From Diogma glabrata (Eukaryota; Arthropoda; Insecta; Diptera; Cylindrotomidae), in assembly GCA_963693315.1 (NCBI GenBank), contig OY856188.1:154698309-154762308 (forward strand): a stretch of DNA of 64,000 bases, read 5' to 3'. The translations under genes and the position numbers were made by a program. Below, piece after piece: positions 10,989 to 61,009 of the stretch. The notes below the pieces were generated by a model, which saw only the letters and a list, made by a program, of their open reading frames with translations, ran no database searches and was not told where the DNA came from. Numbering within the stretch: the first letter of the stretch is position 1; each line of letters begins with the position of its first letter.

Positions 10989-11030
10989 ACCTAAAACTAA
11001 AAAGAAATATCTTGACCTTTGATGACATAA

Positions 11031-14199: not shown

Positions 14200-14201
14200 T
14201 A

Positions 14202-17350: not shown

Positions 17351-17352
17351 CT

Positions 17353-17964: not shown

Positions 17965-17968
17965 CCTC
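17965..17968. other. Provirus target-site duplication, right copy (CCTC)
   Basis: CCTC directly follows ACAACA at the end of the right LTR, matching 7706-7709. Confidence 0.92.
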
Positions 17969-24192: not shown

Positions 24193-24294
24193 AAAGGTTG
24201 TTTCTGGTGACCTAAAGATGCAGAACGAACCCATTCACGAAAATTTGGGTTGGGCGAAGGGCTAACACCCCATTTCCGTAAAAAACTACTTGTC

Positions 24295-31778: not shown

Positions 31779-31823
31779 ACAATATTTATGGAGAAAGTAG
31801 GGAGGTACATTGGTCAGCCACAA

Positions 31824-32339
31824 CAGAGCCCTGTGCTGTGGTAAGGCTATTGAAACTGGAGGGCGCCCGGTATCCAGAGTTCCGTACTAATAATCAAGCA
31901 CCCCCTTGACCATGCTAAGCTTTCGGCGTACGTGTCTCACCTTAGCTTTGGGTTTTGGACTTGATCTTGGCTTCGATTCTCACCGAGGACCTAACGGCAT
32001 GGGTGACCCTACCGTTGTAGCTCCTAAGATCACTGAGTTTACTGAGCCCCATCACTGCGTCAAAGTGCCAAGTCCATTAGATGGTACATGGCACATAAAT
32101 TATATAGTACATGCTATTGATATAAATCGATCATAAAAAAGTATTGGAACATATAGTTTAAAAACAATTCATTATCATAAAATAGTTATATAAAAGCTAA
32201 CTAAACCGGCACTACATAACTACATATGTACATATATATTCGAATGAGAATGTCGGAATATGTGCCTACTCAGGAGAATTTGTTTACTGAAAAATAATCA
32301 GTAATTTTATGTTGTTTAAGGCCAACTTGAATTATATTT
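31824..32339. other. LINE 5' flank and unassigned sequence
   Basis: 31824 to about 32100 is GC-richer than its surroundings and probably LINE 5' sequence. Beyond that, AT-rich sequence up to 32339 shows no gene or recognisable repeat. Confidence 0.45.
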
Positions 32340-32796: not shown

Positions 32797-34835
<2,039 letters not shown>

Positions 34836-34936: not shown

Positions 34937-36384
<1,448 letters not shown>

Positions 36385-36393
36385 ATAATATTC
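36385..36393. other. 9-bp target-site duplication, left copy (ATAATATTC)
   Basis: ATAATATTC lies directly outside the left terminal repeat (ACCTCTCTTAAGC at 36394) and again directly outside the right one at 60806-60814. Confidence 0.85.
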
Positions 36394-36792
36394 ACCTCTC
36401 TTAAGCTGGAAAGACCACCTGAGCAGAATCGACTCGGACCTTTTGCATTATTTAGTACTTATTTTGTACTAATTTGTACCACCAATAAAAATTTTGTACC
36501 ACGTGCCGTTACGACAAAACCCGTGGCGCTGCTAGCTTAATATTAAGCTAGAAAGACCACCTGAGCAGAATCGACTCGGACCTTTTGCATTATTTAGTAC
36601 TTATTTTGTACTAATTTGTACCATCAAGAAAAATTTTGTACCACGTGCCGTTACGACAAAACCCGTGGCGCTGCTAGCTTAATATTAAGCTAGAAAGACC
36701 ACCTGCGCAGAATCGACTCGGACCTTTTGCATTATTTAGTACCTATTTTGTACTAATTTGTACCACCAATAAAAATTTTGTACCACGTGCCG
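36394..36792 (+). repeat. Left terminal inverted repeat with 142-bp subunits
   Basis: About 2.8 tandem units of 142 bp; AAGACCACCTG recurs at 36410, 36552 and 36694. Junctions between units contain the perfect palindrome CTAGCTTAATATTAAGCTAG (36532-36551 and 36674-36693). The unit passes into the 146-bp satellite at GTGCCGTTTAGG. Confidence 0.9.
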
Positions 36793-38745
36793 TTTAGGAG
36801 AAAACTACCCCTAATTAATTTTAGCCTTTCAAGCAAAGTAGGCTTTTGCATGAGCAGACCCGATCGTCACTTCCAAATTAAAACTATTATAGTTTGTACC
36901 GATAAAATATGAACTTTCAGATTTTGTACCCCTTGCCGTTTAGGAGAAAACTACCCCTAATTAACTTATGCCTCAGAAGCAAAGTAGGGTTTTACTTGAG
37001 CAGACCGGATCGTCACTTCTAAATTATAATCATTATAGTTTGTACCGATAAAATATGAACTTTCTGATTTTGTACCACTTGCCGTTTAGGAGAAAACTAC
37101 CCCTAATTAACTTTAGCTTCGGAAGCAAATTTAGCTTTTGCATGAGCAGACCCGATCGTCACTTCTAAATTAGAACCATTATAGTTTGCACCGATAAAAA
37201 ATGAGCTTTCAGATTTTGTACCCCTTGCCGTTTAGGAGAAAACTACCCCTAATTAACTCTAGCCTCACAAGCAAATAAGGCTTTTGCATGAGCAGACCCG
37301 ATCGTCAATTCTACATTAGAACCACTATAGTTTGTACCGATAAAAAATGAACTTTCAGGTTTTGTACCCCTTGCCGTTTAGGAGAAAACTACCCCTAAAT
37401 AACTTTAGCCTCACAAGCCAATTTAGGTTTTGCATGAGCAGACCCGTTCGTCACTTCTAAATTAGAACCATTATAGTTTGTACCGATGAAATATGAACTT
37501 TCAGATTTTATACCCCTTGCCGTTTAGGAGAAAACTACCCCTAATTAACTATAGTCTCGCAAGCAAAGTAAGCTTTTGCATGAGCGAACCCGATCATCAC
37601 TTCTAAATTAGAACCATTATAGTTTGCACCGATAAAATATGAACTTTCAGGTATTGTACCCCTTTACGTTCAGGAGAAAACTACCCTTAATTAACTCTAG
37701 CCTCACAGGCAAAGTAGGCTTTTGCATGAGCAGACCGGATCATCACTTCTAAATTTGAATCATTAAAGTTTGTACCGATAAAATATGAACTTTCAGATTT
37801 TGTACCCCTTGCCGTTTAGGAGAAAACTACCCCTAATTAACTCTAGCCTCCCAAGCAAATTTAGCTTTTGCATGAGCAGACCCGATCTTCACTTCTAAAT
37901 TAGAACCATTATAGTTTGCACCGATAACAAATGAGCTTTCTGATTGTGTACCCCTCGCCGTTTAGGAGAAAACTACCCCTAACTAACTCTAGCCTCGCAA
38001 GCAAAGTAAGCTTTTGCATGAACAGACCCGATCGTCACTTCTAAATTAGAATCATTATAGTTTGTACCGATAAAATATGAGCATTCAGATTTTGTACTCC
38101 TTGCCGTTTAGGAGAAAACTACCCCTAATTAACTTATGCCTCATAAGCAAAGTAGGGTTTTACATGAGCAGACCGGATCGTCACTTCTAAATTATAATCA
38201 TTACAGTTTGTACCGATAAAATATGAACTTTCAGATTTTGTACTCCTTGCCGTTTAGGAGAAAACTACCCCTAATTAACTCTAGTCTCATAAGCAAAGTA
38301 GGCTTCTGCATGAGCAGACCCGATCATTACTTATTAATTCGAACCATTATAGTTTGTACCGAAAAAATATGAGCGTTCAGATTTTGTACCCTTTGCCGCT
38401 TAGGAGAAAACTACCCCTAATTAACTCTAGCCTCACATGCAAAGTAGAGTTTTGCATGAGCAGACCGGATCGTCACTTCTTAGTTATAATCATCATAGTT
38501 TGCACCGATAAAATATGAACTTTCAGATTTTGTACCCCTTGCCGTTTAGGAGAAAACTACCCCTAATTAACTCTAGCCTCACAAGCAAAGTAAGCTTTTG
38601 CATGAGCAGACCGGATCGTCGCTTCTAAATTTGAATCATTATAGTTTGCACCGATAAAATATGGACTTTCAGATTTTGTACTCCTTGCCGTTTAGGAGAA
38701 AACTACCCCTTATTAACTGTAGCCTCCCAAGCAAATTTACAATAG
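36793..38745 (-). repeat. 146-bp satellite array R1 (reverse orientation)
   Basis: About 13 monomers reading CCGTTTAGGAGAAAACTACC on the plus strand, i.e. reverse of the reference monomer TACAAAATCTGAAAGTTCAT...AACGGCAAGGGG. It ends in an irregular junction at TTTACAATAGATTTTCAC. Confidence 0.93.
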
Positions 38746-41700
38746 ATTTTCACAAAATCTGAAAGTTCATATTTTATCGGTACAACTATAGTGGTTCTAA
38801 TATAGAAGTGACGATCGTTTCTGCTCATGCAAAAGTTAAACTTGCTTCAGAGGCTAGAGTTAATTAGGGGTAGTTTTCTCCTAAACGGAAAGGTGTATAA
38901 TACCTGAAAGTTCATATTTTATCGGTGCAAACTATAATGGTTCTAATTTAGAAGTGATGATCGGTATCGCTCATGCAAAATCTTACTTTGCTTGTGAGGC
39001 TACAGTTAATTAGGGGCAGTTTTCTCCTAAACTGCAAGGGGTATAAAATCTGAAAGTTCATATTTCATCGGTAGAACCTATAATGGTTCTAATATAGAAG
39101 TAACGAACGGGTCTGCTCATGCAAAAGCTAAATTTGCTTGTGAGGCTAAATTTAATTAGGGGTAGTTTTCTCCTAAACGGCAAGGGGTACAAAATCTGAA
39201 AGTTCATATTTTATCGATACAAACTATAGTGGTTCTAATGTAGAAGTGACGATCGGGTCTTCTCATGCAAAACCCAAATTTGCTTGTGAGGCTAGAGCTA
39301 ATTAGGGGTAGTTTTCTCCTAAACGGCAAGGGGTACAAAATCTGAATGTTCATATTTTATCGGTGCAAACTATAATGATTATAATTTAGAAGTGACGATC
39401 CGGTCTGCTCATGTAAAACCCTACTTTGCTTCTGAGGCATAAGTTAATTAGGGGTAGTTTTCTCCTAAACGGCAAGGGGTTCAAAATCCGAAAGTTCATA
39501 TTTTATCGGTACAAACTATAATAGTTCTAATTGAGAAGTGACGACCGGGTCTGCTCATGCAAAAGCCTACTTTGCTTGGGAGACTAGAGTTAATTATGGG
39601 TAGTTTTCTCCTAAACGGCAAGGGGTACAAAATCTGAAAGTTCATTTTTTATCGGTACAAACTATAATGGTTCTAATTTAAAACTGAAGATCTAGTGTGC
39701 TTATGCAAAAGCTAAATTTTGCTTGGGAGGCTAGAGTTAATTAGGGGTAGTTTTCTCCTAAACGGCATGGGGTACTAGATCTGAAAGTCCATATTTTATC
39801 AGTACAAACTATAATGATTCAAATTTAGAAGCGACGATCCGGTCTGCTCATGCAAAAGCCTACTTTGCTTGTGAGGCTAGAGTTAATTAGGGGTAGTTTT
39901 CTCCTAAACGTAAAGGGGTACAAAATCTGAAAGTTCATATTTTATCGGTACAAACTATAATGATTATAATTTAGAAGTGACGATTCGGTCTGCTCATGCA
40001 AAACTCTTCTTTGCTTCTGAGGCTAGAGTAAATTAGGGGTAGTTTTCTCCTAAGCGTAAAGGGGTACAAAATCTGAAAGTTCATATTTTATCGGTACAAA
40101 CTGTAATGATTATAATTTAGATGTGACGATCGGGTCTGCTCATGTAAAACCCTACTTTACTTGTGAGGCGTAAGTTAATTAGAGGCAGTTTTCTCCTAAA
40201 CGGCAAGGGGTACGAAATCTGAAAGTTCATATTTTATCGGTACAAACTATAATGATTCTAATTTAAAAGTGACGATCTGATCTGCTCATGTAAAAGCTAA
40301 ATTTGCTTACGAAGCTAAAGTTAATTAGGGGTAGTTTTCTCCTAAACGTAAAGGGGTACAAAATATGAACGCTCATATTTTATTGGTACAAACTATAATG
40401 GTTCTAATTTAGAAGTGACGATCGGGTCTGCTCATGCAAAAGCTTACTTTGCATGAGAGGCTAGAGTTAATTAGGGATAGTTTTATTCTAATCGGCAAGG
40501 GTACAAAATCAGAAAAATCTTTTTTTATTGGTGCAAACTATAATGGTTCTAATTTAGAAGTGAAGATCGGGTCTGCTCATGCAAAAGCTAAATTTGCCTG
40601 GGAGTATAGAGTTAATTAGGGGTAATTTTCTTCTGAACGGCAAGGGGTACAAAATCTGAAAGTTCATATTTTATCGGTACAAACTTTAATGATTCAAATT
40701 TAGAAGTGACGATCCGGTCTGCTCATACAAAAGCCTACTTTGCCTGTGAGGCTAGAAATAATTAAGGGTAGTTTTCTCCTAAACGTAAAGGGGTACAAAA
40801 TCTGAAAGTTCATATTTTATCGGTACAAACTATAATGGTTCTAATTTAGAAGTGATGATCGGGTCTGCTCATGCAAAAGCTTACTTTGCTTGAGAGGCTA
40901 GAGTTAATTAGGGGTAGTTTTCTCCTAAACTGCAAGGGGTATAAAATCTGTAAGTTCATATTTCATCGGTAGAAACTATTATGGTTCTAATTTAGAAGTG
41001 ACGAATGCAAAAGCTAAATTTGCTTGGGAGGCTACAGTTATAATTAGGGGTAGTTTTCTCCTAAACGGCAAGGGGTACAAAATCTGAAAGTTCATATTTT
41101 ATCGGTACAAACTATAGTGGTTCTAATGTAGAAGTGATGATCGGGTCTGCTCATGCAAAAGCCTACTTTGCTTGAGAGGCTAGAGCTAATTAGGGGTAGT
41201 TTTCTCCTAAACGGAAAGGGGTACAAAATCTGAAAGTTCATATTTTATCGGTGCAAACTATAATGGTTCTAATCTAGAAGTGACGGTCGGGTCTGCTCAT
41301 GCAAAAGGTAAATTTGCTTCCGCAGCTAAAGCTAATTAGGGGTAGTTTTCTCCTAAACGGCAAGGGGTACAAAATCTGAAAGTTCATATTTTACCGGTAC
41401 AAACTATAATGATTATAATTTAGAAGTGACGATCCGGTCTGCTCATGTAAAACCCTACTTTGCTTCTGAGGCATAAGTTAATTAGGGGTAGTTTTCTCCT
41501 AAACGGCAAGGGGTACAAAATCTGAAAGTTCATATTTTATCGGTACAAATTATAATAGTTCTTATTTAGAAGGGACGATCGGGTCTGCTCGTGCAAAAGC
41601 CTACTTTGCTTGTGAGGCTAGAGTTAATTCGGGGTAGTTTTCTCCTAAACGGAAAGGGGTACAAAATCTTAAAGTTCATTTTTTATCGGTGCAAACTATA

Positions 41701-43371
41701 ATGGTTCTTATTTAGAAGTGAAGATCGGGTCTGCTCATGCAAAAGCTAAATTTTCTTGGGAGGCTACAGTTAATTAGGGGTAGTTTTCTCCTAAACAGCA
41801 AGGGGTACAAAATCTGAAAGTTCATATTTTATCGCTACAAACTATAATGATTCAAATTTAGAAGTGACGATCCGGTCTGCTCGTGCAAAAGCTTACTTTG
41901 CTTGTGAGGCTAGAGTTAATTAGGGGCAGTTTTCTCCTAAACGTAAAGGGGTACAAAATCTGAAAGTTCATATTTTATCGGTACAAACTGTAATGATTAT
42001 AATTTAGAAGTGACGATCCGGTCTGCTCATGCAAAACTCTACTTTGCTTGTGAGGCTAGAGTTAATTAGGGGTAGTTTTCTGCTAAGCGGCAAGGGGTAC
42101 AAAATCTGAACGCTAATATTTTTTCGGTACAAACTATAATGGTTCGAATTAATAAGTAATGATCGGGTCTACTCATGCAGAAGCCTACTTTGCTTATGAG
42201 GCTAGAGTTAATTAGGGGTAGTTTTCTCCTAAACGGCAAGGAGTACAAAATCTGAAAGTTCATATTTTATCGATACAAACTGTAATGATTATAATTTAGA
42301 AGTGACGATCCGGTCTGCTCATGTAAAACCCTACTTTGCTTATGAGGCATAAGTTAATTAGGGGTAGTTTTCTCCTAAACGGCAAGGGGTACAAAATCTG
42401 AAAGTTCATATTTTATCGGTACAAACTATAATGGTTCTAATTTAGAAGTGAAGATCGGGTCTGCTCATGTAAAACCCTACTTTGCTTCTGAGGCATAAGT
42501 TAATTCGGGGTAGTTTTCTCCTAAACGGCAACGGGGACAAAATCTGAAAGTTCATATTTTATCAGTACAAACTATAATGATTCTAATTTAGAAGTGACGA
42601 TCTGATCTGCTCATGCAAAAGCTAAATTTGCTTACGAAGCTAAAGTTAATTAGGGGTAGTTTTCCCCTAAACGGCAAGGGGTACAAAATCTGAATGCTCA
42701 TATTTTATCGGTACAAACTATAATGATTCTAATATAGAAGTGACGATCGGGTCTGCTCATGCAAAAGCTTACTTTGATTGAGAGGCTAGAGTTAATTAGG
42801 GGTAGTTTTCTCATAACCGGCAAGGGGTACATAATCTGAATGCTCATATTTTATCGGTACAAACTATAATGATTCTAATTTAGAAGTGACGATCGGGTCT
42901 GCTCATGCAAAAGCTTACTTTGCTTGGGAGGCTAGAGTTAATTAGGGGTAGTTTTCTCCTAAACGGCAAGGGGGACAAAATCAGAAAAAAATCTTTTTTT
43001 ATCGGTGCAAACTATAATGGTTCTAATTTAGAAGTGACGATCGGGTTTGCTCATGCAAAAGCTAAATTTGCCTGGGAGGCTAAAGTTAATTAGGGGTAGT
43101 TTTCTCCTAAACGGCAAGGGGTACAAAATCTGAAAGTTCATATTTTATCGGTACAAACTTTAATGATTCAAATTTAGAAGTGACGATCGGGTCTGCTCAT
43201 GCAAAAGCCTACTTTGTTTGTGAGGCTAGAGCTAATTAGAGGTAGTTTTCTCCTAAACGGAAAGGGGTACAAAATCAGAAAGTTCATTTTTTATCGGTGC
43301 AAACTATAATGGTTCTGATTTAGAAGTGAAGATCGGGTCTGCTCATGCAAAAGCTAAATTTGCTTGGAAAA
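38746..43371 (+). repeat. 146-bp satellite array F1 (forward orientation)
   Basis: About 31 monomers. At least two monomer variants recur: one with GTAAAACCCTACTTTGCTTC and GGCATAAGTTAATT, another with GCAAAAGCTAAATTTGCTTG. Frames of about 61 residues inside monomers are artefacts. Confidence 0.93.
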
Positions 43372-46300
43372 CTACCCCTTATTAACTGTAGCCTCCCAAG
43401 CAAATTTAGCTTTTGCATGAGCAGACCCGATCTTCACTTCTAAATCAGAACCATTATAGTTTGCACCGATAAAAAATGAACTTTCTGATTTTGTACCCCT
43501 TTCCGTTTGGGAGAAAACTACCTCTAATTAGCTCTAGCCTCACAAACAAAGTAGGCTTTTGCATGAGCAGACCCGATCGTCACTTCTAAATTTGAATCAT
43601 TAAAGTTTGTACCGATAAAATATGAGCATTCAGATTATGTACCCCTTGCCGTTTAGGAGAAAACTACCCCTAATTAACTCTAGCCTCTCAAGCAAAGTAA
43701 GCTTTTGCATGAGCAGACCCGATCGTCACTTCTAAATTAGAATCATTATAGTTTGTACCGATAAAATATGAGCATTCAGATTATGTACCCCTTGCCGTTT
43801 AGGAGAAAACTACCCCTAATTAACTCTAGCCTCTCAATCAAAGTAAGCTTTTGCATGAGCAGACCCGATCGTCACTTCTATATTAGTATCATTATAGTTT
43901 GTACCGATAAAATATGAGCATTCAGATTTTGTACCCCTTGCCGTTTAGGGGAAAACTACCCCTAATTAACTTTAGCTTCGGAAGCAAATTTAGCTTTTGC
44001 ATGAGCAGATCAGATCGTCACTTCTAAATTAGAATCATTATAGTTTGTACTGATAAAATATGAACTTTCAGATTTTGTCCCCGTTGCCGTTTAGGAGAAA
44101 ACTACCCCGAATTAACTTATGCCTCAGAAGCAAAGTAGGGTTTTACATGAGCAGACCCGATCGTCACTTATAAATTAGAACCATTATAGTTTGTACCGAT
44201 AAAATATGAACTTTCAGATTTTGTACCCCTTGCCGTTTAGGAGAAAACTACCCCTAATTAACTTATGCCTCATAAGCAAAGTAGGGTTTTACATGAGCAG
44301 ACCGGATCGTCACTTCTAAATTATAATCATTACAGTTTGTATCGATAAAATATGAACTTTCAGATTTTGTACTCCTTGCCGTTTAGGAGAAAACTACCCC
44401 TAATTAACTCTAGCTTCATAAGCAAAGTAGGCTTCTGCATGAGTAGACCCGATCATTACTTATTAATTCGAACCATTATAGTTTGTACCGAAAAAATATG
44501 AGCGTTCAGATTTTGTACCCCTTGCCGCTTAGCAGAAAACTACCCCTAATTAACTCTAGCCTCACAAGCAAAGTAGAGTTTTGCATGAGCAGACCGGATC
44601 GTCACTTCTAAATTATAATCATTACAGTTTGTACCGATAAAATATGAACTTTCAGATTTTGTACCCCTTTACGTTTAGGAGAAAACTGCCCCTAATTAAC
44701 TCTATTCTCACAAGCAAAGTAAGCTTTTGCATGAGCAGACCGGATCGTCACTTCTAAATTTGAATCATTATAGTTTGTAGCGATAAAATATGGACTTTCA
44801 GATTTTGTACCCCTTGCTGTTTAGGAGAAAACTACCCCTAATTAACTGTAGCCTCCCAAGAAAATTTAGCTTTTGCATGAGCAGACCCGATCTTCACTTC
44901 TAAATAAGAACCATTATAGTTTGCACCGATAAAAAATGAACTTTCAGATTTTGTACCCCTTTCCGTTTAGGAGAAAACTACCCCGAATTAACTCTAGCCT
45001 CACAAGCAAAGTAGGCTTTTGCATGAGCAGACCCGATCGTCACTTCTAAATAAGAACTATTATAATTTGTACCGATAAAATATGAACTTTCAGATTTTTT
45101 ACCCTTTGCCGTTTAGGAGAAAACTACCCCTAATTAACTTATGCCTCAGAAGCAAAGTAGGGTTAACATGAGCAGACCGGATCGTCACTTCTAAATTATA
45201 ATCATTATAGTTTGTACCGATAAAATATGAACTTTCAGATTTTGTACCCCTTGCCGTTTAGGAGAAAACTACCCCTAATTAGCTTTAGCTTCGGAAGCAA
45301 ATTTACCTTTTGCATGAGCAGACCCGACCGTCACTTCTAGATTAGAACCATTATAGTTTGCACCGATAAAATATGAACTTTCAGATTTTGTACCCCTTTC
45401 CGTTTAGGAGAAAACTACCCCTAATTAGCTCTAGCCTCTCAAGCAAAGTAGGCTTTTGCATGAGCAGACCCGATCATCACTTCTACATTAGAACCACTAT
45501 AGTTTGTACCGATAAAAAATGAACTTTCAGATTTTGTACCCCTTGCCGTTTAGGAGAAAACTACCCATAATTAACTCTAGTCTCCCAAGCAAAGTAGGCT
45601 TTTGCATGAGCAGACCCGGTCGTCACTTCTCAATTAGAACTATTATAGTTTGTACCGATAAAATATGAACTTTCGGATTTTGAACCCCTTGCCGTTTAGG
45701 AGAAAACTACCCCTAATTAACTTATGCCTCAGAGGCAAAGTAGGGTTTTACATGAGCAGACCGGATCGTCACTTCTAAATTATAATCATTATAGTTTGCA
45801 CCGATAAAATATGAACATTCAGATTTTGTACCCCTTGCCGTTTAGGAGAAAACTACCCCTAATTAGCTCTAGCCTCACAAGCAAATTTGGGTTTTGCATG
45901 AGAAGACCCGATCGTCACTTCTACATTAGAACCACTATAGTTTGTACCGATAAAATATGAACTTTCAGATTTTGTACCCCTTGCCGTTTAGGAGAAAACT
46001 ACCCCTAATTAAATTTAGCCTCACAAGCAAATTTAGCTTTTGCATGAGCAGACCCGTTCGTTACTTCTATATTAGAACCATTATAGGTTCTACCGATGAA
46101 ATATGAACCTTCAGATTTTATACCCCTTGCAGTTTAGGAGAAAACTGCCCCTAATTAACTGTAGCCTCACAAGCAAAGTAAGATTTTGCATGAGCGATAC
46201 CGATCATCACTTCTAAATTAGAACCATTATAGTTTGCACCGATAAAATATGAACTTTCAGGTATTATACACCTTTCCGTTTAGGAGAAAACTACCCCTAA

Positions 46301-49300: not shown

Positions 49301-49377
49301 GTATAACGATAAAATATGAACTTCCAGATTTTGTACACCTTGCCGTTTAGGAGAAAACTACCCTTAATTAAATTCAG
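43372..49377 (-). repeat. 146-bp satellite array R2 (reverse orientation)
   Basis: About 41 monomers. The first ~3 kb mirror F1 variant by variant (see findings). The array ends in a degraded monomer before GTCTGGCCGAGGTG. Confidence 0.93.
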
Positions 49378-51206
49378 TCTGGCCGAGGTGTACCACGATA
49401 GCAAATGTCTGACAATGGCTGACGTGAGTTCTAATACTATCCCGAAGAATATATAAAAAAATTACCTTTTATACTTTAACGCAACTTTGGAGGCCCCTTT
49501 GTTTCCTGCTCCCTGCCATGGCCACCATGATCCAAGCTTCATATGTCGCCAATCGTTCCTACCTGAGTAGGAGGTTTGCGTAGAAAAACTTTCAGCTTTT
49601 ATAAAATAACGAAGTTCTGGCCGTCGCGGGCTCTTGCTCTATTAGGTAATTTAGAAGAATTATACTGTAGTGAAATTGTATCTTATTTAAAATTTTCTTT
49701 TGTTAATCCGATGATTTTTTTTGCTGGGTTTTGATTATGTTTTTTTTGTAATATTAAACAGTTTTTTTTGAATTTACAAAAGTTTTCGTTGTTCTTGGTG
49801 GATGATAATGTTCGTTGCAGAATTTTATATGATATATTAAGTTTTCTTTTAATTGGTTAGAGGATTTTGTAGGACTTAAGATAATCAGGGGAGACTTATA
49901 ACAACATATAGCACACTAGTCTCCATGGGTGGATTTAATGGGGAAAAGTGCTAGACACCTTCTACCTAGTGACTAAATATTCTTCTCAATCTGATGTTTC
50001 TTTTGTGTTGTTTTATTTCGTTTTGGTTTCTACAACAAGATTGACTCAGAACACCTTTTAGGTAAAAAGCAGCACTCTCATGCTTTTACGGAATGCCTAA
50101 GACATCCCCATACCCACTTTTCACTGATCTACTAGCCAAGGCAGATGTGCTGCGTCTTAAGGTAATTAATTTCGTGGAAGGAATTCTGTTCGCAATTCTC
50201 TCTGCGATAGAGAGAATTTTTATTCATTCCGCGACATTTTATTTATAATTTCGGTCACTGGGCGATTTCTACTATATTAAAATATTCCGCAACATGGTAT
50301 AAGTGAAAATGAATTGTTTGCAAAATTTATGAAAAATATGTGACAGAGGAAAAGCTTAAGAATTGGCACAATGAGTCTATTTCTAGAGAAAAAAATCCCT
50401 TTTAAAAATGAATGATAGCAACCGATGAAGCCGTTTTCTATTCTTTCCTAAGCAGGTTTTTAATGAGAATTACTGGGTTTGAATCGATCCTCTTTTCCGA
50501 TAGAAACGGCAGGAATAATCATTATCGTGAAACTATGAGCCTACAGAAAGTGTATTCTTAAGGTGATCAGTCGTCCTCCTTTTGGAAGGACAATTCTGCT
50601 TTTGTAGGTTCTGTCCTTCCTCGGAATATGTCCTCCTAGCTGTCCTAGCGATTTTAAAACTAATCTGTTAATCTCTGTATTCAGAGACGTTTTTATATCA
50701 GCCATTTATCAATTTAATTTTTTTAACAAAGTATTAGAATTGTTCAATCGAAAGGGTGTTGTTTTCCATCATGACTAAACCAGACTACACATATCTTTGA
50801 TTATCCGCCAAAAATGATTGAACTGTTAACTGGGTTAGCAGTTTGGTGCAGTCAATGTATATACCCCAGATTTTGCTGCATCTATCATTTATTCCTGTCT
50901 TTGGAAATAATCTTTGATGAGAAAAAGCTTGCCGATAAAAGAGTCAACGAAAATCACCTGAATAAAAAGATAAGCTTAAATAAAAAAACTAAGAATAACA
51001 GAACTATCCTGCAATTTTCATAAATGAATTTAATTGAAAGTAAAACCTACAAATATTCAATTTGCAATCAAAACTACATTCCACATCACACGATGCTACT
51101 AGGCTTGCCACCTATACGTTTTTGGATCGTATAATACGTTTTTTTTATCAAAAATATTTGTGAATACGCTATACGTACGTTTTTTGAAAATATTCATATA
51201 TAATAT

Positions 51207-51363
51207 CACGAGTCGTCAAATAATAATCGATTATTTTTCATAATCATTATTACGAATATCATTTGAGGTCCCGAGTGCGCGTAGCGCACGAGGGAAATTT
51301 TTAACCTCAAATGGCATGACTGGTAATGTTGAAAAATAATCGACTAATAATTTGGTGACGAGT
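51207..51363. repeat. Palindromic MITE-like repeat with GCGCGTAGCGC centre
   Basis: Left TCGTCAAATAATAATCGATT pairs imperfectly with right AATCGACTAATAATTTGGTGACGA. The inner CATTTGAGGT pairs with ACCTCAAATG. The centre GAGTGCGCGTAGCGCACGAG forms a tight hairpin. Confidence 0.65.
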
Positions 51364-52271
51364 TGTATTTAGCAGACAATTTAACGAACAGAAATAGTAA
51401 CATTATTTCATACAACATAATCCTTTGTTGTCAAACAAAATTAAATATTATTTCATCTTAGTAGGCGCATAAATGTTATAAATTTGTAATTTATTTTTGA
51501 CAAATAAACATAAACATGCAATCATTTATGAATGAAATCGGACATTTTTACTATTTTCGAATTGCATTTTCACATAATTTTGTATGTGAATTTTTGTTTT
51601 AAATTAATATATTAAGTAGGCCGAAAATATTCGAAAATATTGGCTGTTCCTGCCCACCAGAGAAAAATAATCGAAACAATTCGTTTTGATTTGTTAAAAA
51701 ATAGTAAATGAAGCGTTTTTATTGGACCTTATCGAAACTTTATTTAGTGAGTTGAATTGTCAAAAATATACGCCTTTTTTGGTTATAAATAGTTAAATTC
51801 AGTTATTTTCATAAATACGTAACCTAAATGAAGTTTTTCCCTTATTAACTGTAATGAATTGCAGAGAAAAGTGGACTGAATATTCTAAAATCAACATAAA
51901 CGCACTTGAATGACTTAAAATTTGCAAATTTGTGTTTGCCGGCCAGTTAATAAATTTAATTGTTTTGTTGAACGCATTTTTAGCGTGATGGGAAATATAT
52001 GGACTTACAAATCAAAAGGCTTCATACCGATATGGTGAAATCAGAATTATTTAAGCATTTCAACTACAGATGAGTTGCACTGAATTTGCAAATTTTATTA
52101 AGAAAAACGATAAGTCTAACAAAAAATTGATCGAAGCAGCAAAATCGATCTCCTATACCATTTGGTTACTATTTATAAAATTTTTAACTATGTTATTATA
52201 TGTTATTTAGTCAATTAAAGTAAGACATTTTTTTAATATATTTATTTTGTTTATATTGTTATCGTTTTACT

Positions 52272-54045
52272 ATGGTCTGAAAGACCTAAGTATTGCATTC
52301 ATGAGCCAAAAGTGAAATTCTTACCACCACTTTTTTTGGCATTTCTCGACGTTTTAGGACCTACTGATTCTAAAAAAGCAAAAAAAAATTTATATCTGTC
52401 TGCCGGCCGGCCGTCACAACCTACGAAATCTAGAAAACCGCGGGACGGGTTTTTAATTTTTTTTTTCTAAAAATAGGTTTACTTAATGGAAAGAGCCGAA
52501 AGGACAATGTGTTCGATAACTGTACCGGAAGTGTGTCAAAAAAATCATCAAGTGTGTCAAATCAAGAAAATTTGCAATTTTTTGCTTTAAAAACTTTCAT
52601 TTTAAGTGATTACGAGTAGGAACATTAAATTTGGAGAAATCTTGATTGTCGGGATTGGCATGTGGGACCAAAATCTAAGTTATTGCATTATAAGTTTGTC
52701 AAAAAAAGATTGTTGTCAGAAGAAAGATTTTTATTTATTTATTTACCCAATTTTTTGTAAAAAAATAAAATTGATTATTTGTATGATATGAACTTTTATT
52801 ATTGAGAATTATGGCATTATAAGTATGTCAAAAAAAGTTGTCAAGTATGTTAAAAGAAAGATTTTTATTTATTTTTTTACCCAGTTTTTCGTAAAAAAAT
52901 AAAATTAATTATTTGTATGATATGAACTTTTATTATTATTATTGAGAATTATGGCATTATAAGTTTGTCAAAAAAATGTTGTCAAGTGTGTCAAAAGAAA
53001 GATTTTTATTTCTTTTATTACCCAATTTTTTGGAAAAATAAAATTAATTATTTGTACGACATGAAATTTTATTATTATTATTGAGAATTATAAGTTAGTC
53101 AAAAAATAATGTCAAGTGTGTCAAAAGAATGATTTTCATTTATTTTTTTAGGAAAAAATAAAATTAGTTATTTGTATGAAATGAAATGTATAATGAACTT
53201 GAAATTATTATTGAGAATTTTTTTGCATTATAAGTTTTTCAAAAAAATATTGTCAAGTGTGTCAAAAATATGATTTCATTTTTTTTTTTTAATAATTTTT
53301 TGGAAAAAAAAATTTAGCTGTTTGCTTACGTAAATATAATTGAACATGGAAATTTTTGAATTTGTGATAGTTTTGAAATATTTTTGGAATTTTGAAAAGT
53401 TTCAATTTTTGATTTTGTAAGAATTTATGGAATATTTTTAGAATTGTGAAAAATTTTAAAATTTTGAATTTATTATAATTTTTATAATTTTGGAAAAATT
53501 TTCAATTTTTGATGTTGTTATAATTTATGCAATATTTTTAGAGTTTTTGAAAAAAGTTTTAATCTTTGATTGTGCAATAATTTTTGGAATATTTTTAGAA
53601 TTTTGTTTGAAAAAAGTTTGAGTTTTTGATTTTATTTAATTTTTACAATATTTTTGGAATGTTGAAAGAAATATGAATTTGTGATTTTGAAATATTTTCT
53701 TGAAACGCTAAATGGAGAGGTTTTTGAGTAGTTTGCTGATTGTATAATATTTTCACTAAATTATGTTAATTTATGATCTGTTATAATTTTCCGACAACGT
53801 ATTGTTGTTTCGTGTTAGTTTTGTAATACACATCTAAACAGACATAAAAAATACTAAAGTACATGTTTTTTTAACAAAAGTAACAAAAAGTTATGTTTGA
53901 TATATGTACATCGCTTCCCAAAACTAAAAACCATGTCCTCATAAAAGTTTTTGCCGAAAGCTATATCAAAATTATTAACCCAGACCGAAGTCTTGATCGA
54001 ATCTCACAGCTCTGAGATGATTTCAGCCCCTCCATATTTTTCCAA
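52272..54045 (+). repeat. Interspersed repeat family A, copy 2, internally expanded
   Basis: Collinear with 838-1885. The extra ~0.7 kb comes from about five tandem copies (52680-53330) of a ~150-bp unit containing TATAAGTTTGTCAAAAAAATG, GTCAAGTGTGTCAAAAGAAAG and TTGAGAATTATGGC. Frames inside it are short and unrelated to known proteins. Confidence 0.7.
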
Positions 54046-54320
54046 TTAACTTATAAAATAAATAAAACATATGAGTAAAAATAATTCTTTTAATTATTTT
54101 ATTTCAAAATATATATGTATACGCTTTTGGAAAAATTCAAAGGTGGTAAGCCTAGATGTTACATCATATCAGTGCTAGTTCAACATGTTTAAGAAAATAA
54201 TTAATTTTTACATTCATTTATTTGGAAAATATTAAATCTAATTGTTTACCGTTATTTGGGATTATTTTGATCTTTTTGAAAATGAAAAAAATTGATGAAA
54301 CCATTCCAAAAATTAGCATA

Positions 54321-57300
54321 CAAAATCTGAAAGTTCATATTTTATCGGTGCAAACTATAATGATTATAATTCAGAAGTGACGATCTGGTCTGCTCATGTA
54401 AAACCCTACTTTGCCTCTGAGGCAAAAGTTAAATAGGGGTAGTTTTCTCCTAAACGGCTAGGGGTACAAAATCTGAAAGTTCATATTTTATCGGTACAAA
54501 CTATAATGGTTCGAATTAATAAGTAATGGTCGGGTCTGCTCATGCAAAACTCTACTTTGCTTGTGAGGCTAGAGTTAATTAGGGGTAGTTTTCTCCTAAA
54601 CGGTAAGAAGCACAAAATCTGAAAGTTCATATTTTATCGGTACCAACTAAAGTGGTTCTATTATAGAAGTGACGATCGTTTCTGCTCATGCAAAATTTAA
54701 ATTTGCTTGTGAGGCTAGAGTTAATTAGGGGTAATTTTCTCCTAAAAGGAAAGGGGTACAAAACCTTAAAGCACATATTTTATCGGTACAAACTATAATG
54801 GTTCTAATTTAGAAGTAATGATCGGGTTCGCTTATGCAAAAGCTTACTTTGCTTGTGAGGCCAGAGTTAATTCGGGGTAAATTTCTACTAAACGGAAAGG
54901 GGTACAAAATCTGAAAGTTCATACCTTATCGGTACAAACTATAATGGTTCTATTTAGAAGTGATGATTGGGTTTGCTCAGGCAAAAGCCTACTTTGCTTG
55001 TGAGGCTAGAGCTAATTAGGGGTAGTTTTCTCCTAAACGGCAGGGGGTACAAAATCTGAAAGTCCATATTTTATCGGTACAAACTATAATGATTCAAATT
55101 TAGAAGCGACGATCCGGTCTACCGCTCATTAAAAAGCTTACCTTGCTTGTGAGGCTAGAGTTAAGTAGTTTTAGTTTTCTCCTATACGTAAAGGGGTACA
55201 AAATCTGAAAGTTCATATTTTATCGGTACAAACTATAATGATTCAAATTTAGAAGTGACGATCTGCTCTGCTCATGCAAAACTCTACTTTGCTTGTGAGG
55301 CTAGGGTATATTAGGGGTAGTTTTCTCCTAAACGGCAAGGGGTACAAAATCTGAAAGTTCATATTTTATCGGTACAATCTGTTATGATTATAATTTACTA
55401 GTGACGATCCGGTCTGCTCATGTTAAACCCTCCTTTGCTTCTGAGGCTTATGTTAATTAGGGGTAGTTTTCTCTTGAACGGCAAGGGGTACAAAATCTGA
55501 AAGTTCATATTTTATCGGTTCTAATTTAGAAATGACGATCGGGTCTGCTCATGTAAAACCCTACTTTGCTTCTGAGGCATAAGTTAATTAGGGGTAGTTT
55601 TCTCCTAAACGGCAAGGGGTACAAAATCTGAAAGTTCATATTTTATCGGTACAAACTATAATGATTCTAATTTAGAAGTGACGATCTGATCTGCCCATGC
55701 AAAAGCCTACTTTGCTTGTGAGGCTAGAGTTAATTAGGGGTAGTTTTCTCCTAAACGGCAAGGGATATAAAATTTGAACGATCATATTTATCGGTACAAA
55801 CTATAATGGTTCTAATTAAGAAGTGACGAACGGGTCTGCTCATGCAAAAGCTTACTTTGCTTGGGAGGCTAGAGTTAATAAGGGTAGTTTTCTCCTAAAC
55901 GGCAAGGGGTACAAAATCTGAACGCTCATATTTTATCGGTACAAACTATAATGGTTCTAATTTAGTAGTGAAGATCGGGTCTGCTCATACAAAAGCCTAA
56001 TTTGCTTCTGAGGCTAGAGTTAATTAGGGGTAGTTTTCTCCTAAACGGCAAGGGGTACAAAATCTGAAAGTTCATATTTTATCGGTACAAACTTTAATGA
56101 TTCAAATTTAGAAGTGACGATCCGGTCTGCTCATGCAAAAGCTTACTTTGCTTGTGATGCTAGAGTTAATTAGGGGTAGTTTTCTCCTAAGTGGCAAGGG
56201 GGAAAAAATCTGAACGCTCATATTTTATCGGTACAAACTTTAATGGTTCGAATTAATAAGTAATGATCGGGTCTGCTCATGCAAAAGCCTACTTTGCTTA
56301 TAAGGCTAGAGTTAATTAGGGGTAGTTTTCTTCTAAACGGCAAGGGGTACAAAATCTGAAAGTTCATATTTTATCGATTCAATCTGTAATGATTATAATT
56401 TAGAAGTGACGATCCGGTCTGCTCATGTAATACCCTACTTTGCTTGTGAGGCTAGAGTTAATTAGGGGTAGTTTTCTCCTAAACAGCAAGGGGTACAAAA
56501 TCTGAAAGTTCATATTTTATCGGTACAAACTATGATGGTTCTAATTTAGAAGTGACGATCGGGTCTGCTCATGTAAAACCCTACTTTGCTTGTGAGGCAT
56601 AAGTTAATTAGGGGTAGTTTTCTCCTAAACGGAAAGGGGTACAAAATCTGAACGCTCATATTTTATCGGTACAAACTATAATGGTTCTAATTTAGAAGTG
56701 ACGATCGGGTCTGCTCATGCAAAAGCTTACTTTGCTTGGGAGGCTAAAGTTAATTAGGGGTAGTTTTCTCCTAAACGGCAAGGGGTACAAAATCTGAACG
56801 CTCATATTTTATCGGTACAAACTATAATGGTTCTAATTTAGAAGTGACGATCCGGTCTGCTCATGCAAAAGCCTACTTTGCCTGTGAGGCTAGAGTTAAT
56901 TAAGGGTAGTTTTCTCCTAAACGTAAAGGGGTACAAAATCTGAAAGTTCATATTTTATCGGTGCAAACTATAATGGTTCTAATTTAGAAGTGATGATCGG
57001 GTTCGCTCATGCAAAAGCTTACTTTGCTTGTGAGGCTAGAGTTAATTAGGGGTAGTTTTCTCCTAAACTGCAAGGGGTATAAAATCTGAAAGTTCATATC
57101 TCATCGGTTCAAACTATTATGATTATAATTTAGAAGTGACGAACGGGCCTGCTCATGCAAAAGCTAAATTTGCTTGTGAGGCAAAAGTTATAATTAGGGG
57201 TAGTTTTCTCCTAAACGGCAAGGGGTACAAAATCTGAAAGTCCATATTTTATCGGTACAAACTATAGAGATTCTAATTTAGAAGTGACGATCGGGTCTGC

Positions 57301-60300
57301 TCATGCAGAAGCCTACTTTGCTTGTGAGGCTAAAGTTAATTAGGGGTAGTTTTCTCCTAAACGGCAAGGAGTACAAAATCTGAAAGTTCATATTTTATCG
57401 GTACAAACTGTAATGATTATAATTTAGAAGTGACGATCCGGTCTGCTCATGTAAAACCCTACTTTGCTTATGAGGCATAAGTTAATTAGGGGTAGTTTTC
57501 TCCTAAACGGCAAGGGGTACAATATCTGAAAGTTCATATTTTATCGGTGCAAACTATAATGGTTCTAATTCAGAAGTGACGATCGGGTCTGCTCATGCAA
57601 AAGCTAAATTTGCTTCCGAAGCAAAGCTAAAGCTAATTAGGGGTAGTTTTCTCCCAAACGGCAAGGGGTACAAAATCTGTAAGTTCATATTTTATCGGTA
57701 CAAATTATAATGATTATAATTTAGAAGTGACGATCCGGTCTGCTCATGTAAAACCCTACTTTGCCTCTGAGGCTAAAGTTAATTAGGGGTAGTTTTCTCC
57801 TAAACGGCAAGGGGTACAAAATCTGAAAGTTTATATTTTATCGGTACAAACTATAATAGTTCTAATTTAGAAGTGACGATCGGGTCTGCTCATGCAAAAG
57901 CCTACTTTGCTTGGGAGGCTAGAGTTAATTAGGGGTAGTTTACTCCTAAACGGAAAGGGGTACAAAATTTGAAAGTTCATTTCTATCGGTGCAAACTATA
58001 ATGGTTCTAATTTAGAAGTGAAGATCGGGTCTGCTCATGCAAAAGCTAAATTTGCTTGGGAGGCTACAGTTAATTAGGGGTAGTTTTCTCCTAAATGGCA
58101 AGGGGTACAAAATCTGAAAGTCCATATTTTATCGGTACAAACTATAATGATTCAAATTTAGAAGCGACGATCCGGTCTGCTCATGCAAAAGCTTACTTTG
58201 CTTGTGATGCTAGAGTTAATTAGGGGTAGTTTTCTCCTAAACGTAAAGGGGTACAAAATCTGAAAGTTCATATTTTATCGGTACAAACTATAATGATTAT
58301 AATTTAGAAGTAACGATCCGGTCTGCTTATGCAAAACTCTACTTTGCTTCTGAGGCTAGAGTTAATTAGGGGTAGTTTTCTCCTAAGCGGCAAGTGGTAT
58401 AAAATCTGAACGCTCATATTTTATCGGTACAAACTATAATGGTTCGAATTAATAAGTGATCGGGTCTGCTCATGCAAAAGCCTACTTTGCTTATGTGGCT
58501 AGAGTTAATTAGGGGTAGTTTTTTAAATCTGAAAGTTCGTATTTATCGGCACAAACTGGAATGATTATAATTTAGAAGTGACGATCCGGTCTGCTCATGT
58601 AAAACCCTACTTTGCTTCTGAGGCATAAGTTAATTAGGGGTAGTTTTCTCCTAAACGGCAAGGGGTACAAAATCTGAAAGTTCATATTTTATCGGTACAA
58701 ACTATAATGATTATAATTTAGAAGTGACGATCTGATCTGCTCATGCAAAAGCTAAATTTGCTTCCGAAGCTAAAGTTAATTAGTGGTAGTTTTCTCCTAA
58801 ACGGCAAGGGGGACAAAATCTGAATGCTCATATTTTATCGGTACAAACTATAATGATACTAATTTAGAAGTGACGATCGGGTCTGCTTATGCAAAAGCTT
58901 ACTTTGTTTGTGAGGCTAGAGTTAATTAGGGGTAGTTTTCTCCTAATCGGCAAGGGGTACAAAATCAGAAAGTTCATTTTTTATCGGTGCAAACTATAAT
59001 GGTTCTAATTTAGAAGTGAAGATCGGGTCTGCTCATGCAAAAGCTAAATTTGCTCGGGAGGCTAGAGTTAATTAGAGGTAGTTTTCTCCGAAACGGCAAG
59101 GGGTACAAAATCTAAAAGTTTATATTTTATCGGTACAAACTTTAATGATTCAAATTTTGAAGTGACGATCCGGTCCGCTCATGCAAAAGTCTACTTTGCT
59201 TGTGAGGCTAGAGTTAATTAGGGGTAGTTTTCTCCTAAACGGCAAGGGGTACAAAATCTAAAAGTTCATTTTTTATCAGTACAAACTATAATGGTTCGAA
59301 TTTAGAAGTAGTGATCGGGTCTGCTCATGCTGAACTCTACTTTGCTTGTGAGGCTAGAGTTAATTAGGGGTAGTTTTCTCCTAAACGGCAAGAAGCACAA
59401 AATCTGAAAGTTTATATTTTATCGGTACAAACTATAGTGGTTCTAATTTAGAAGTGACGATCGTTTTGCTCATGCAAAAGTTAAATTTGCTTCGGAGGCT
59501 AGAGCTAATTAGGGGTAGTTTTCTCCTAAACGGAAAGTGGCACAATACCTGAAAGTTCATATTTTATCGGTGCAAACTATAATGGTTCTAATTTAGAAGT
59601 GATGATCGGGTTCGCTCATGCAAAAGCTTACTTTGCTTGTGAGGCTAGAGTTAATTAGGGGTAGTTTTCTCCTAAACTGCAATGGGTATAAAATCTGAAA
59701 GTTCATATTTCATCGGTACAAACTATAATGGTTCTAATATAGAAGTGACGAACGGGTCTGCTCATGCAAAAGCTAAATTTACTTGTGAGGCTTAAGTTAA
59801 TTAGGGGTAGTTTTCTCCTAAACGGCAAGGGGTACAAAATCTGAAATTTCATATTTTATCGGTACAAACTATAGTGGTTCTAATTTAGAAGTGACGATCG
59901 GGTCTGCTCATGCAAAAGCCTAATTTGCTTGTGAGGCTAAAGCTAATTAGGGGTAGTTTTCTCCTAAACGGCAAGGGGTACAAAATCTGAAAGTTCATAT
60001 TTTATCGGTGCAAACTATAATGGTTCTAATTTAGAAGTGACGATCGGGTCTGCTCTTGCAAAAGCTAAATTTGCTTCCGAAGCTAAAGTTAATTAGGGGT
60101 AGTTTTCTCCTAAACGGCAAGGGGTACAAAATCTGAAAGTTCATATTTTATCGGTTCAAACTATAATGATTATAATTTAGAAGTGACGATCCGGTCTGCT
60201 CATGTAAAACCCTACTTTGCTTCTGAGGCATAAGTTAATTAGGGGTAGTTTTCTCCTAAACGGCAAGGGGTACAAAATCTGAAAGTTCATATTTTATCGG

Positions 60301-60406
60301 TACAAACTATAATAGTTTTAATTTGGAAGTGACGATCGGGTCTGCTCATGCAAAAGCCTACTTTGCTTGAAAGGCTAAAATTAATTAGGGGTAGTTTTCT
60401 CCTAAA
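54321..60406 (+). repeat. 146-bp satellite array F2 (forward orientation)
   Basis: About 41 monomers between the loop and the right terminal repeat, with the same variants as F1. It forms the outer right arm pairing with R1 and R2. Confidence 0.93.
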
Positions 60407-60805
60407 CGGCACGTGGTACAAAATTTTTATTGGTGGTACAAATTAGTACAAAATAGGTACTAAATAATGCAAAAGGTCCGAGTCGATTCTGCGCAGGTGG
60501 TCTTTCTAGCTTAATATTAAGCTAGCAGCGCCACGGGTTTTGTCGTAACGGCACGTGGTACAAAATTTTTCTTGATGGTACAAATTAGTACAAAATAGGT
60601 ACTAAATAATGCAAAAGGTCCGAGTCGATTCTGCGCAGGTGGTCTTTCTAGCTTAATATTAAGCTAGCAGCGCCACGGGTTTTGTCGTAACGGCACGTGG
60701 TACAAAATTTTTATTGGTGGTACAAATTAGTACAAAATAAGTACTAAATAATGCAAAAGGTCCGAGTCGATTCTGCTCAGGTGGTCTTTCCAGCTTAAGA
60801 GAGGT
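60407..60805 (-). repeat. Right terminal inverted repeat with 142-bp subunits
   Basis: Exact mirror in organisation of 36394-36792, including the variant order: the middle unit has the CTTGATGGTAC variant on this strand, matching GTACCATCAAG on the left. The 20-bp palindrome recurs at 60506-60525 and 60648-60667. It ends GCTTAAGAGAGGT. Confidence 0.9.
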
Positions 60806-60814
60806 ATAATATTC
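60806..60814. other. 9-bp target-site duplication, right copy (ATAATATTC)
   Basis: Perfect match to 36385-36393, immediately after the right terminal repeat. Confidence 0.85.
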
Positions 60815-61009
60815 AATGTATACATGTTTTTATATTTTATATTTAACACTACATACGCATTAAATATTCACTTACACTACACAATAGCAAGAAAACAAAT
60901 GGAATGAAGTAAATACTAAAGATGTATTTGTTTTAAAATAATAGTTTTATGTTCGTTTAAAAATCAGAACATGATACGTAATACGTTTTACATTGATTTT
61001 AACTGTGTT

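Follow-up and report, generated by a model that had tools for sequence, protein, structure and literature searches.

The window analysed here, a 64,000-nucleotide stretch of the Diogma glabrata genome, contains a long block of tandem repeats with inverted ends, which raises the question whether such a block reached its position as one mobile unit and, if so, by what means. We regard the block as very probably a copy of a giant non-autonomous foldback DNA transposon family, and it appears almost certain that its satellite arms and its loop move together as a single mobile unit. The family has fixed ACCTCTC ends and target-site duplications of 9 bp (sometimes 10 bp), and it moves as a whole.

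Structure of the element

The element (Table 1) has perfect termini, starting with ACCTCTCTTAAGCTGG and stopping with CCAGCTTAAGAGAGGT. A preliminary description of this DNA had placed ATAATATTC directly outside both ends, and the two copies of this 9-bp duplication are indeed exact. The ends had also been described as 399-bp inverted repeats. They are inverted, with an ungapped identity of 99.5% over 399 bp (two mismatches), but the length given was too short: over 600 bp identity is 99.7%, over 1,250 bp it is still 97.8%, and BLAST aligns the arms in a single alignment of 2,295 columns (93.0%). Deeper than this aligned part, the arms are opposed arrays of one 146-bp satellite. The approximately 19 kb of satellite that had been reported inside the unit correspond to 19,449 bp of 142/146-bp tandem repeats, about 80% of the element. 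The inverted block of the left arm has a counterpart with 94.1% identity in copy C1_423, whose left arm it matches in inverted order. The window sequence contains no N, and no RNA family was found in it at the gathering threshold.

Table 1. Features of the element and its flanks in the window.
Feature	Position	Strand	Remarks
Left flank	36300-36384		part of a dispersed repeat
Target-site duplication, left, ATAATATTC	36385-36393		exact match to right copy
Entire mobile element	36394-60805		24,412 bp; ends, family comparison, empty sites
Left terminus	36394-36805	+	about three 142-bp units, starting ACCTCTCTTAAGCTGG
Left arm, block 1	36806-38735 (array from 36775)	+	146-bp satellite
Left arm, block 2 (inverted)	38752-43366	-	146-bp satellite
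Left arm, block 3	43367-49371	+	146-bp satellite
Loop	49372-54318		4,947 bp
Right arm	54319-60393 (array to 60424)	-	146-bp satellite, opposite orientation
Right terminus	60394-60805	-	about three 142-bp units, finishing CCAGCTTAAGAGAGGT
Target-site duplication, right, ATAATATTC	60806-60814		exact match to left copy
Right flank	60815-60909		other half of the same interrupted dispersed repeat

The longest stop-free frame in the window loop comprises 82 aa, so that this loop holds no frame of transposase size. Its core (about 49385-52112) is common to the loops of the six other elements compared, with 96.8-98.5% identity to the core of the window copy. Longer loops are present at C4:181.66 and C3:299.66 Mb, both with a frame of 371 aa and the latter also with one of 457 aa; these frames were named by eye and are read as reverse-transcriptase-like, nested insertions. 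The loop is inverted in the copies at C1:49.08 and C3:299.66 Mb. An interpretation as flip isomers was set aside, as with symmetrical arms these are indistinguishable from an element inserted in the opposite orientation.

A family of whole-unit insertions

A search with the 26-bp terminus (up to two mismatches) yielded 162 matches in the 1.33-Gb genome, and the reversed-pattern control none. Other copies ending at ACCTCTC, for which the preliminary description had suggested a search, were thus found, and they carry different 9-bp duplications. Examination of 84 ends gave 35 adjacent left-right pairs, spaced 21.0-56.5 kb. The pairing uses the matches listed (100 of 162), which seem to be exact ends only, as the terminus at C1:242931502 is not among them; partners with a mismatch would lie outside it, and the pair C4:222408711-222437034 and some other unpaired listed ends were left out of the examined set. 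The bounds of 21-57 kb are set by the duplications, and the contents are known from seven copies of 21-28 kb that were read internally (one of them minus its last ~1 kb).

These seven elements follow a common plan of 142-bp ends, a plus-strand array, a loop and a minus-strand array, from which the window copy departs by its extra inverted block. Their arms measure 5-14 kb per side, nested insertions counted in, and satellite arrays make up 44-80% of each element. The three-unit terminus (401-412 bp) occurs at 13 of the 14 ends of the seven elements, the right end of C1_423 being outside this set. Over their first 400 bp, the 31 standard three-unit ends among 39 distinct ones have a mean pairwise identity of 99.1%, in an ungapped count that excludes eight ends with other spacings; a MAFFT alignment was confounded by changes in repeat number and was replaced by this count. 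The copies at C1:96.62 and C1:329.31 Mb have in common two nested insertions, one of 3.05 kb (99.2% identity) and one of 2.02 kb (99.65%), each at a corresponding position. As their duplications, CGTCATAGC and CACAACTAC, are unlike, whole units of 25-26 kb must have been copied.

Target-site duplications and empty sites

Exact duplications of 9 bp flank 27 of the 35 pairs and exact duplications of 10 bp another two, while six pairs have neither. The copies at C1 297.65 and 298.45 Mb have the same duplication and almost the same flanks (299 and 300 identical bases out of 300) and represent one duplicated segment, the merging of which leaves 28 separate insertions with duplications. When flanks of non-partners were compared as a control, a 9-bp match was obtained in only four of 1,190 cases, two of them from this duplicated segment and the rest from two places where flanks were exchanged or nested (C1:310.58-310.64 Mb, and 310.61 together with 354.00 Mb). 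The duplications are therefore not due to chance. The 27 duplications of 9 bp vary between copies, are 74% A+T and contain no fixed motif. Among the six pairs without a 9-10 bp duplication, one has 5 bp in common and three resemble exchanged or nested flanks, which points to misjoined identical elements, to recombination or to an unlisted end lying between.

The window copy sits inside a dispersed repeat. Its joined flanks with a single ATAATATTC found a full-length match at all 40 places scored (from 111 candidates), 12 of them at 100% and 28 at 99%; these empty sites are not orthologous loci but paralogues of the target repeat elsewhere in this genome. Together with the differing duplications of the other copies, they bear out the earlier proposal that the block was inserted as one unit. 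Junction-spanning matches were obtained for five of 29 joined sites, and two of the five are further paralogous empty sites: C4:174062576 against window positions 19774-19482 (94.5%, gap-free at the junction) and C1:329310638 against locus L031 (94% over 192 columns, of which only 40 are on the left side). C1:423730208 and C3:287441817 were rejected as empty sites, as each matched the site's own flank. The joined site C3:94218484 has a junction-spanning match of 75-87%, the junction itself lying outside the reading.

Transposase and superfamily

The preliminary description considered the structure compatible with Mutator-like transposition. The duplication length and the arm structure fit this proposal: the terminal inverted repeats (TIRs) of the window element exceed 100 bp, as in Mutator-like elements (MULEs), and the duplications agree with the 8-10 bp and the little sequence preference given for MULEs (PMC5225508). 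Foldback character is evident from the seven elements, in which tandem repeats form long inverted arms around a loop, and from the duplications of about 9 bp. The mover is probably a transposase of the Mutator (MULE) superfamily that acts in trans. MULE domains are plentiful in the genome, with 66 over the cut-off, and several of them belong to frames of 478-513 aa without a stop. However, none of the 58 on C1, C3 and C4 lies less than 430 kb from any end in the list (100 of 162), with distances taken to exact ends up to C4:222.4 Mb among the matches listed. As no transposase is thereby linked to the ends of the family, we infer the Mutator assignment from structure.

P elements produce duplications of 7-8 bp and Merlin elements of 8-9 bp. 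The 9-10 bp in 29 of the 35 pairs do not agree with the P length, and an origin as LTR element, LINE, Helitron or Polinton was rejected for a wrong duplication length or no duplication at all. It is nevertheless conceivable, if unlikely, that another superfamily with duplications of 8-9 bp (Merlin or P/Galileo-like) is responsible and that the resemblance to Mutator is convergence. Such a reading would fit with the distance of the MULE domains from the listed ends and with Galileo, which is placed in the P superfamily despite foldback-like arms with ~210-bp tandem repeats (PMC3573991). The abundance of MULE domains, the transposase family covered by the search, argues against it, as does the distribution of duplication lengths (27 of 29 with 9 bp, two with 10 bp), which is like that of Tm1, Muta1 and Tetris.

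Origin of the satellite

A satellite 26-mer has 2,921 exact matches genome-wide (control: none). Among the 100 matches listed, which cover the first 96.6 Mb of C1, 86 fall within two elements of the family and 11 lie outside mapped elements at two C1 loci, with three more beside an unpaired end. At one of the free loci (L117) an array of at least 2.1 kb is followed by DNA without the repeat. The preliminary description saw in the block a way in which satellite DNA could spread. With 86 of the 100 listed matches in two elements, however, the repeat has little resemblance to a host satellite that was carried along, and the block is better described as a transposon with the satellite as its arms.

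The same data bear on a composite capture, in which two small foldback or MITE ends would have bracketed an existing host satellite array and mobilised it once or a few times. In its favour, near-invariance is limited to the ends, as the arm blocks of the window copy have best matches of 87.8-95.4% in other copies, and a few satellite stretches lie beyond mapped elements. On the other hand, all 35 pairs span at least 21 kb and the 100 exact ends listed form no adjacent pair below this length (which leaves room for short copies whose ends are mismatched), the symmetrical plan and a homologous loop recur in all seven elements read, and the 142-bp end unit is partly similar to the 146-bp arm unit. 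With the concentration of listed satellite matches in two elements, this makes a capture quite improbable.

Assembly and segmental duplication

It is very improbable that the arrays were collapsed or misjoined by the assembly around short real elements. Such an artefact could account for the exchange of flanks among C1:310.61, C1:354.00-354.03 and contig C1618, for the nested-looking pair C1:310.58-310.64, for a pair with inverted flanks (C1:267.20-267.21 Mb) and for the inverted block in the left arm of the window copy. Yet in 29 of 35 pairs the two halves of one duplication face each other across 21-57 kb, a correspondence that misjoins would destroy, and nested insertions occupy identical places in two copies and the empty sites are precise. 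The interval C1:310582728-310642388 contains two elements, separated by 2 kb of other DNA, between AACAAAAAT duplications that lie 59.7 kb apart, an arrangement as expected from a composite jump, in which ends may act across neighbouring copies; if so, the donor copy would be flanked by GAACTAACC and TATATACATA, without AACAAAAAT.

Segmental duplication or gene conversion instead of transposition has a negligible probability: it describes the pair at C1 297.65 and 298.45 Mb, but the flanks of the other duplication-bearing pairs differ, starting exactly at ACCTCTC, and the joined flanks of the window copy occur uninterrupted elsewhere.

Comparison with known elements

Foldback and FB-NOF elements of Drosophila have long inverted arms of tandem repeats, a loop and 9-bp duplications; FB repeats are short (10-31 bp) and FB elements a few kb long. 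The window family resembles them in arms, loop and duplications and differs by its 142/146-bp units and its size of 21-57 kb.

Tetris of Drosophila virilis is a non-autonomous foldback element with duplications of 8-10 bp; its authors report no transposase for it and suggest Mutator (PMC4079207). Its TIR-220 tandem repeats became satellite arrays, which were amplified within Tetris and count as many as 66 units in the assembly; TIRs reach 1,735 bp at most, and three structurally complete copies with duplications are described along with four rearranged ones (PMC4079207). By description only, the window family is likened to Tetris in its foldback arms of tandem repeats and its duplications of about 9 bp, and it differs in that duplications are intact in 29 of 35 pairs, 21-57 kb apart, and that the arms of the seven copies read are 5-14 kb long.

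Tm1 of Meloidogyne, a Mutator/Foldback family, has composite TIRs of tandem repeats with units of ~14 bp and duplications that are mostly of 9 bp (45 of 53 with 8-10 bp); one measured element has 1,080 bp, and 7-bp terminal motifs outside the repeats are unlike between the ends (PMC3169594). By eye, ACCTCTC is a similar 7-bp motif, but it is identical at both ends. The insect MULE Muta1 (Aedes aegypti), a type 2 foldback element with tandem repeats in its TIR, has duplications of 8 or 9 bp and little or no insertion-site preference; it is 3,198 bp long with a 145-bp TIR of 12-bp repeats, encodes its own transposase and is active in yeast (PMC5225508). The window element is far longer (24,412 bp) and its loop lacks a transposase frame. 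Foldback-like arms of tandem repeats also occur in Galileo of Drosophila, with ~210-bp repeats of changing copy number and TIRs of up to ~1.26 kb (PMC3573991). The non-coding gadMor-hAT-1784 MITEs of Atlantic cod, hAT-derived according to their authors, resemble the window element in being non-coding with tandem-repeat TIRs (~600 bp of 167-169-bp units), and form tandem accumulations (mean 1.3-5.8 kb) at inversion breakpoints (PMC12368964). Polintons, typically 15-25 kb and up to 40 kb, are of the same size class but are coding and bring their own replication genes (PMC6431247), in contrast to the non-coding repeats of the window element.

Proposed mechanism and significance

For the foldback family proposed here, a transposase encoded elsewhere, most likely a Mutator (MULE) enzyme, would bind the near-invariant terminal 142-bp units, excise the element and insert it at another place. 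The 146-bp arm repeats may derive from the terminal unit, a descent proposed because the two units are partly similar, and the arrays could have been lengthened by unequal exchange or slippage among tandem units. Added arm units would be compatible with transposition and may act as extra transposase-binding sites. From whole-unit transposition combined with these steps, it would follow that the satellite was dispersed mainly through transposition of its carrier. Whether its chromosomal presence stems almost wholly from DNA transposition, with arms of 5-14 kb per side as working ends, is a tentative and rather doubtful extension; if true, the usual drop of cut-and-paste movement with size fails where the cargo is the end sequence.

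Foldback elements with repeat arms that seed satellites are already known from Tetris, the authors of which suggest that transposition may have been disrupted once the arrays grew larger (PMC4079207). The novelty here is continued and repeated transposition with arms of 5-14 kb, and the 28 separate insertions of 21-57 kb, each with its own duplication, point in the opposite direction to that supposition. With their near-identical ends, the approximately 80 palindromes (162 ends) are probably also prone to rearrangement and to errors in assembly. The family addresses the old question of how satellite DNA moves between places, and offers a direct system for studying the size limit of a jumping non-coding element, the help that arm repeats give to a transposase and the share of transposition in satellite dispersal.

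Genomic copies and target duplications

The giant foldback transposons with satellite arms form a real family, and the evidence for it is stronger than could be known from the window alone. A search of the 1.33-Gb genome, in which the window occupies C4:154698309-154762308, with the 26-bp terminus of the window element, allowing up to two mismatches, yielded 82 forward and 80 reverse matches (162 in total), with none for the reversed control. Of these, 100 were listed, all of them exact matches. A total of 84 ends were examined; 70 form 35 adjacent left-right pairs with a spacing of 21.0 to 56.5 kb, and 14 are unpaired. No adjacent pair below 21.0 kb occurs among the 100 listed exact ends, and short copies with mismatched ends are possible. 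An exact 9-bp duplication flanks 27 of the 35 pairs (median size 30.6 kb) and an exact 10-bp duplication two, while the remaining six have none, one of them with 5 bp in common. The copies at C1:297648277 and C1:298451327 (loci L053-L056), 0.8 Mb apart, have the same duplication, GTCAATTTT, and 299 and 300 of 300 flanking bases are identical. They are one duplicated segment with a single insertion and are therefore counted once, which leaves 28 separate duplication-bounded insertions and bears out the preliminary description of the satellite block as one mobile unit with a 9-bp duplication. Among 1,190 non-partner comparisons a 9-bp match was seen in four, all stemming from this duplicated segment or from exchanged flanks.

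Such exchanged flanks were found at pairs without a duplication. The flank AACAAAAAT borders C1:310582728 on the left and recurs on the right side of C1:310642388 (L011-L014, L116). Between these outer ends lie an inner right end, flanked by GAACTAACC, and an inner left end, with 2,029 bp separating the two. GAACTAACC, located at C1:310610860, is also present left of C1:354004781, and ATTTCGATA is found right of C1:354033643 as well as left of an element end in contig C1618 (L015, L016, L001). These shared flanks may reflect either identical elements that were misjoined in the assembly or recombination between elements, which would be ectopic in the case of C1:354.00-354.03 and C1618. For C1:310582728-310642388 it is also possible that two neighbouring elements jumped as one composite unit, and the other three pairs lacking a duplication may have an unlisted end between the two. 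At C1:267204973-267213787 (L047, L048) 8.8 kb separate a right end from a left end, and the 12 flanking bases given outside the one are the reverse complement of those outside the other (GTACTTGGTTTG / CAAACCAAGTAC).

Structure of the window element

Features of the window element and of its surroundings (window coordinates)
Feature	Position	Strand	Remarks
Mobile element	36394-60805		24,412 bp; exact ATAATATTC on both sides
Terminal 142-bp units	each end of the element		~412 bp per end
Left arm, 146-bp satellite, first block	36806-38735	+	
Left arm, 146-bp satellite, inverted middle block	38752-43366	-	
Left arm, 146-bp satellite, third block	43367-49371	+	
Loop	between 49371 and 54319		4,947 bp
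Possible old nested element in loop	~51102-54160		
Right arm, 146-bp satellite	54319-60393	-	
Second palindromic element	6546-19774		148-bp tandem repeats; arms ~90% alike; ends TTAGGGTGGCCCTT embedded in (TA)n (by eye); split by LTR element
LTR element	7710-17978		LTRs 98.4% identical; open frames gag-like, pol (RT, RNase H, integrase) and envelope-like (Baculo_F)
LINE-type retrotransposon	24211-27279		long open frame, endonuclease and reverse transcriptase domains; (AT)n directly after it
LINE-type retrotransposon	29235-31886		long open frame, endonuclease and reverse transcriptase domains
Perfect (GT)n	32800-34834		2,035 bp
Other perfect (TA)n/(AT)n runs	elsewhere in the window		four runs, 173-336 bp

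Repeats make up 19,449 bp of the element. The 399-bp inverted repeats noted previously are present and correspond to the 142-bp part only; between the arms, identity is 99.7% for the outermost 600 bp and 97.8% for 1,250 bp, and a single arm-versus-arm alignment extends to 2.3 kb (93% identity). The middle, inverted block of the left arm aligns at 94.1% with the left arm of another copy, the order being inverted. No such block occurs in the six further copies read, which makes it seem a rearrangement confined to the window copy among these seven. Inside the loop, short and imperfect inverted ends that were noticed by eye (AGGCTTGCCACC / GGTGGTAAGCCT) bound a stretch which may be an old nested element containing 134-bp repeats; self-comparison gave no significant inverted match there.

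Movement as a whole unit and empty sites

All seven copies read inside, which measure 21-28 kb and include the window copy (C1:423.73 without its last ~1 kb), have a common plan of 142-bp ends (where sequence was obtained), plus-strand array, loop and minus-strand array. Arrays account for 44-80% of each copy, and the arms measure 5-14 kb with nested insertions counted in. The copies have the first 2.7 kb of their loops in common, with identities of 94.7 to 99.9% among the pairs compared and of 96.8 to 98.5% to the window copy. Insertions of 3.05 kb (99.2% identity) and 2.02 kb (99.65%) sit at the same positions in two copies, C1:96.62 Mb and C1:329.31 Mb (L101-L106). As the target duplications of these two copies differ (CGTCATAGC and CACAACTAC, respectively), these nested insertions were carried along with the whole 25-26 kb unit. 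The inserts have CCCAAGTAAC-like inverted ends and represent another DNA transposon family sited in these arms of satellite. The copy at C1:49.08 Mb contains a relative of the larger insert.

Empty sites, all of them paralogous places within one genome, were also found. The 150 bp left of the window copy belong to a dispersed repeat with 108 candidate places, of which 40 were scored, window included, at 99-100% identity. The joined flanks with a single ATAATATTC (189 nt), the kind of site which the preliminary description proposed to look for, match over their full length at every one of the 40 places scored among 111 candidates, with 100% identity at 12 and 99% at 28. The window insertion therefore interrupted a young repeat, uninterrupted copies of which persist in the genome. 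The empty site of the C4:174062576 copy is part of the second palindrome in the window (19774-19482; 94.5%, gapless at the junction). In a further alignment, C1:329310638 and L031 agree at 94% across 192 columns, of which 40 precede the junction on its left side.

Possible transposition mechanism

The fixed ends and the 9-bp, in some copies 10-bp, duplications show that a transposase inserted these elements in a staggered manner. The terminal 400 bp, with a mean identity of 99.1% in 31 ends of standard type out of 39 distinct ends, are more uniform than the loops. Such uniformity would be expected where movement is limited to copies with well-preserved ends, or where conversion takes place between ends. 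As no long coding frame was found in the loop of the window element, the enzyme would have to be supplied in trans. In the genome, 66 MULE domains passed the cut-off, and several of them are part of stop-free frames 478-513 aa long. C1, C3 and C4 carry 58 of these domains, all of them farther than 430 kb from any listed end (100 of the 162 ends). A Mutator origin is the best inference, as distinct from an established membership.

Relation to known elements and to the satellite

The plan of the family is that of foldback elements. As far as the available text of the cited papers goes, the nearest known system is Tetris of D. virilis, a non-autonomous element with tandem repeats in its arms, duplications of 8-10 bp, terminal inverted repeats of up to 1,735 bp and derived satellite arrays with as many as 66 units, whose authors propose that bigger arrays may have disrupted transposition (PMC4079207). 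Judged by the same kind of partial text, Tm1 (PMC3169594), Muta1 (PMC5225508), Galileo (PMC3573991) and a cod hAT MITE with 167-169-bp repeats (PMC12368964) are far smaller than the window family. According to the accessible part of a review on giant transposons, transposition efficacy falls above 6 kb of cargo, artificial constructs moved cargoes of 100-200 kb, and Polintons measure 15-25 kb and up to 40 kb (PMC6431247). No satellite-armed transposon of such size was found among the open-licence titles and abstracts retrieved for foldback, satellite and Mutator.

An exact 26-mer of the 146-bp unit has 2,921 matches in the genome (control: none). Among the 100 listed, which cover the first 96.6 Mb of C1, 86 lie inside the duplication-bounded elements at 49.08 and 96.62 Mb, three adjoin the end at 54.35 Mb, which is unpaired, and the remaining 11 are at two other loci outside mapped elements, one of which (L117) is a satellite array of at least 2.1 kb. 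Within this part of C1, satellite and transposon are thus, as far as seen, nearly identical in distribution. That satellites arise from transposon repeats is not a new idea, since a 2025 review, in its accessible part, states that they can originate in terminal inverted repeats and internal arrays (PMC12628747). In one local alignment the 142-bp unit partly resembles the 146-bp unit, and this suggests that the 146-bp satellite grew out of the terminal unit of the transposon.
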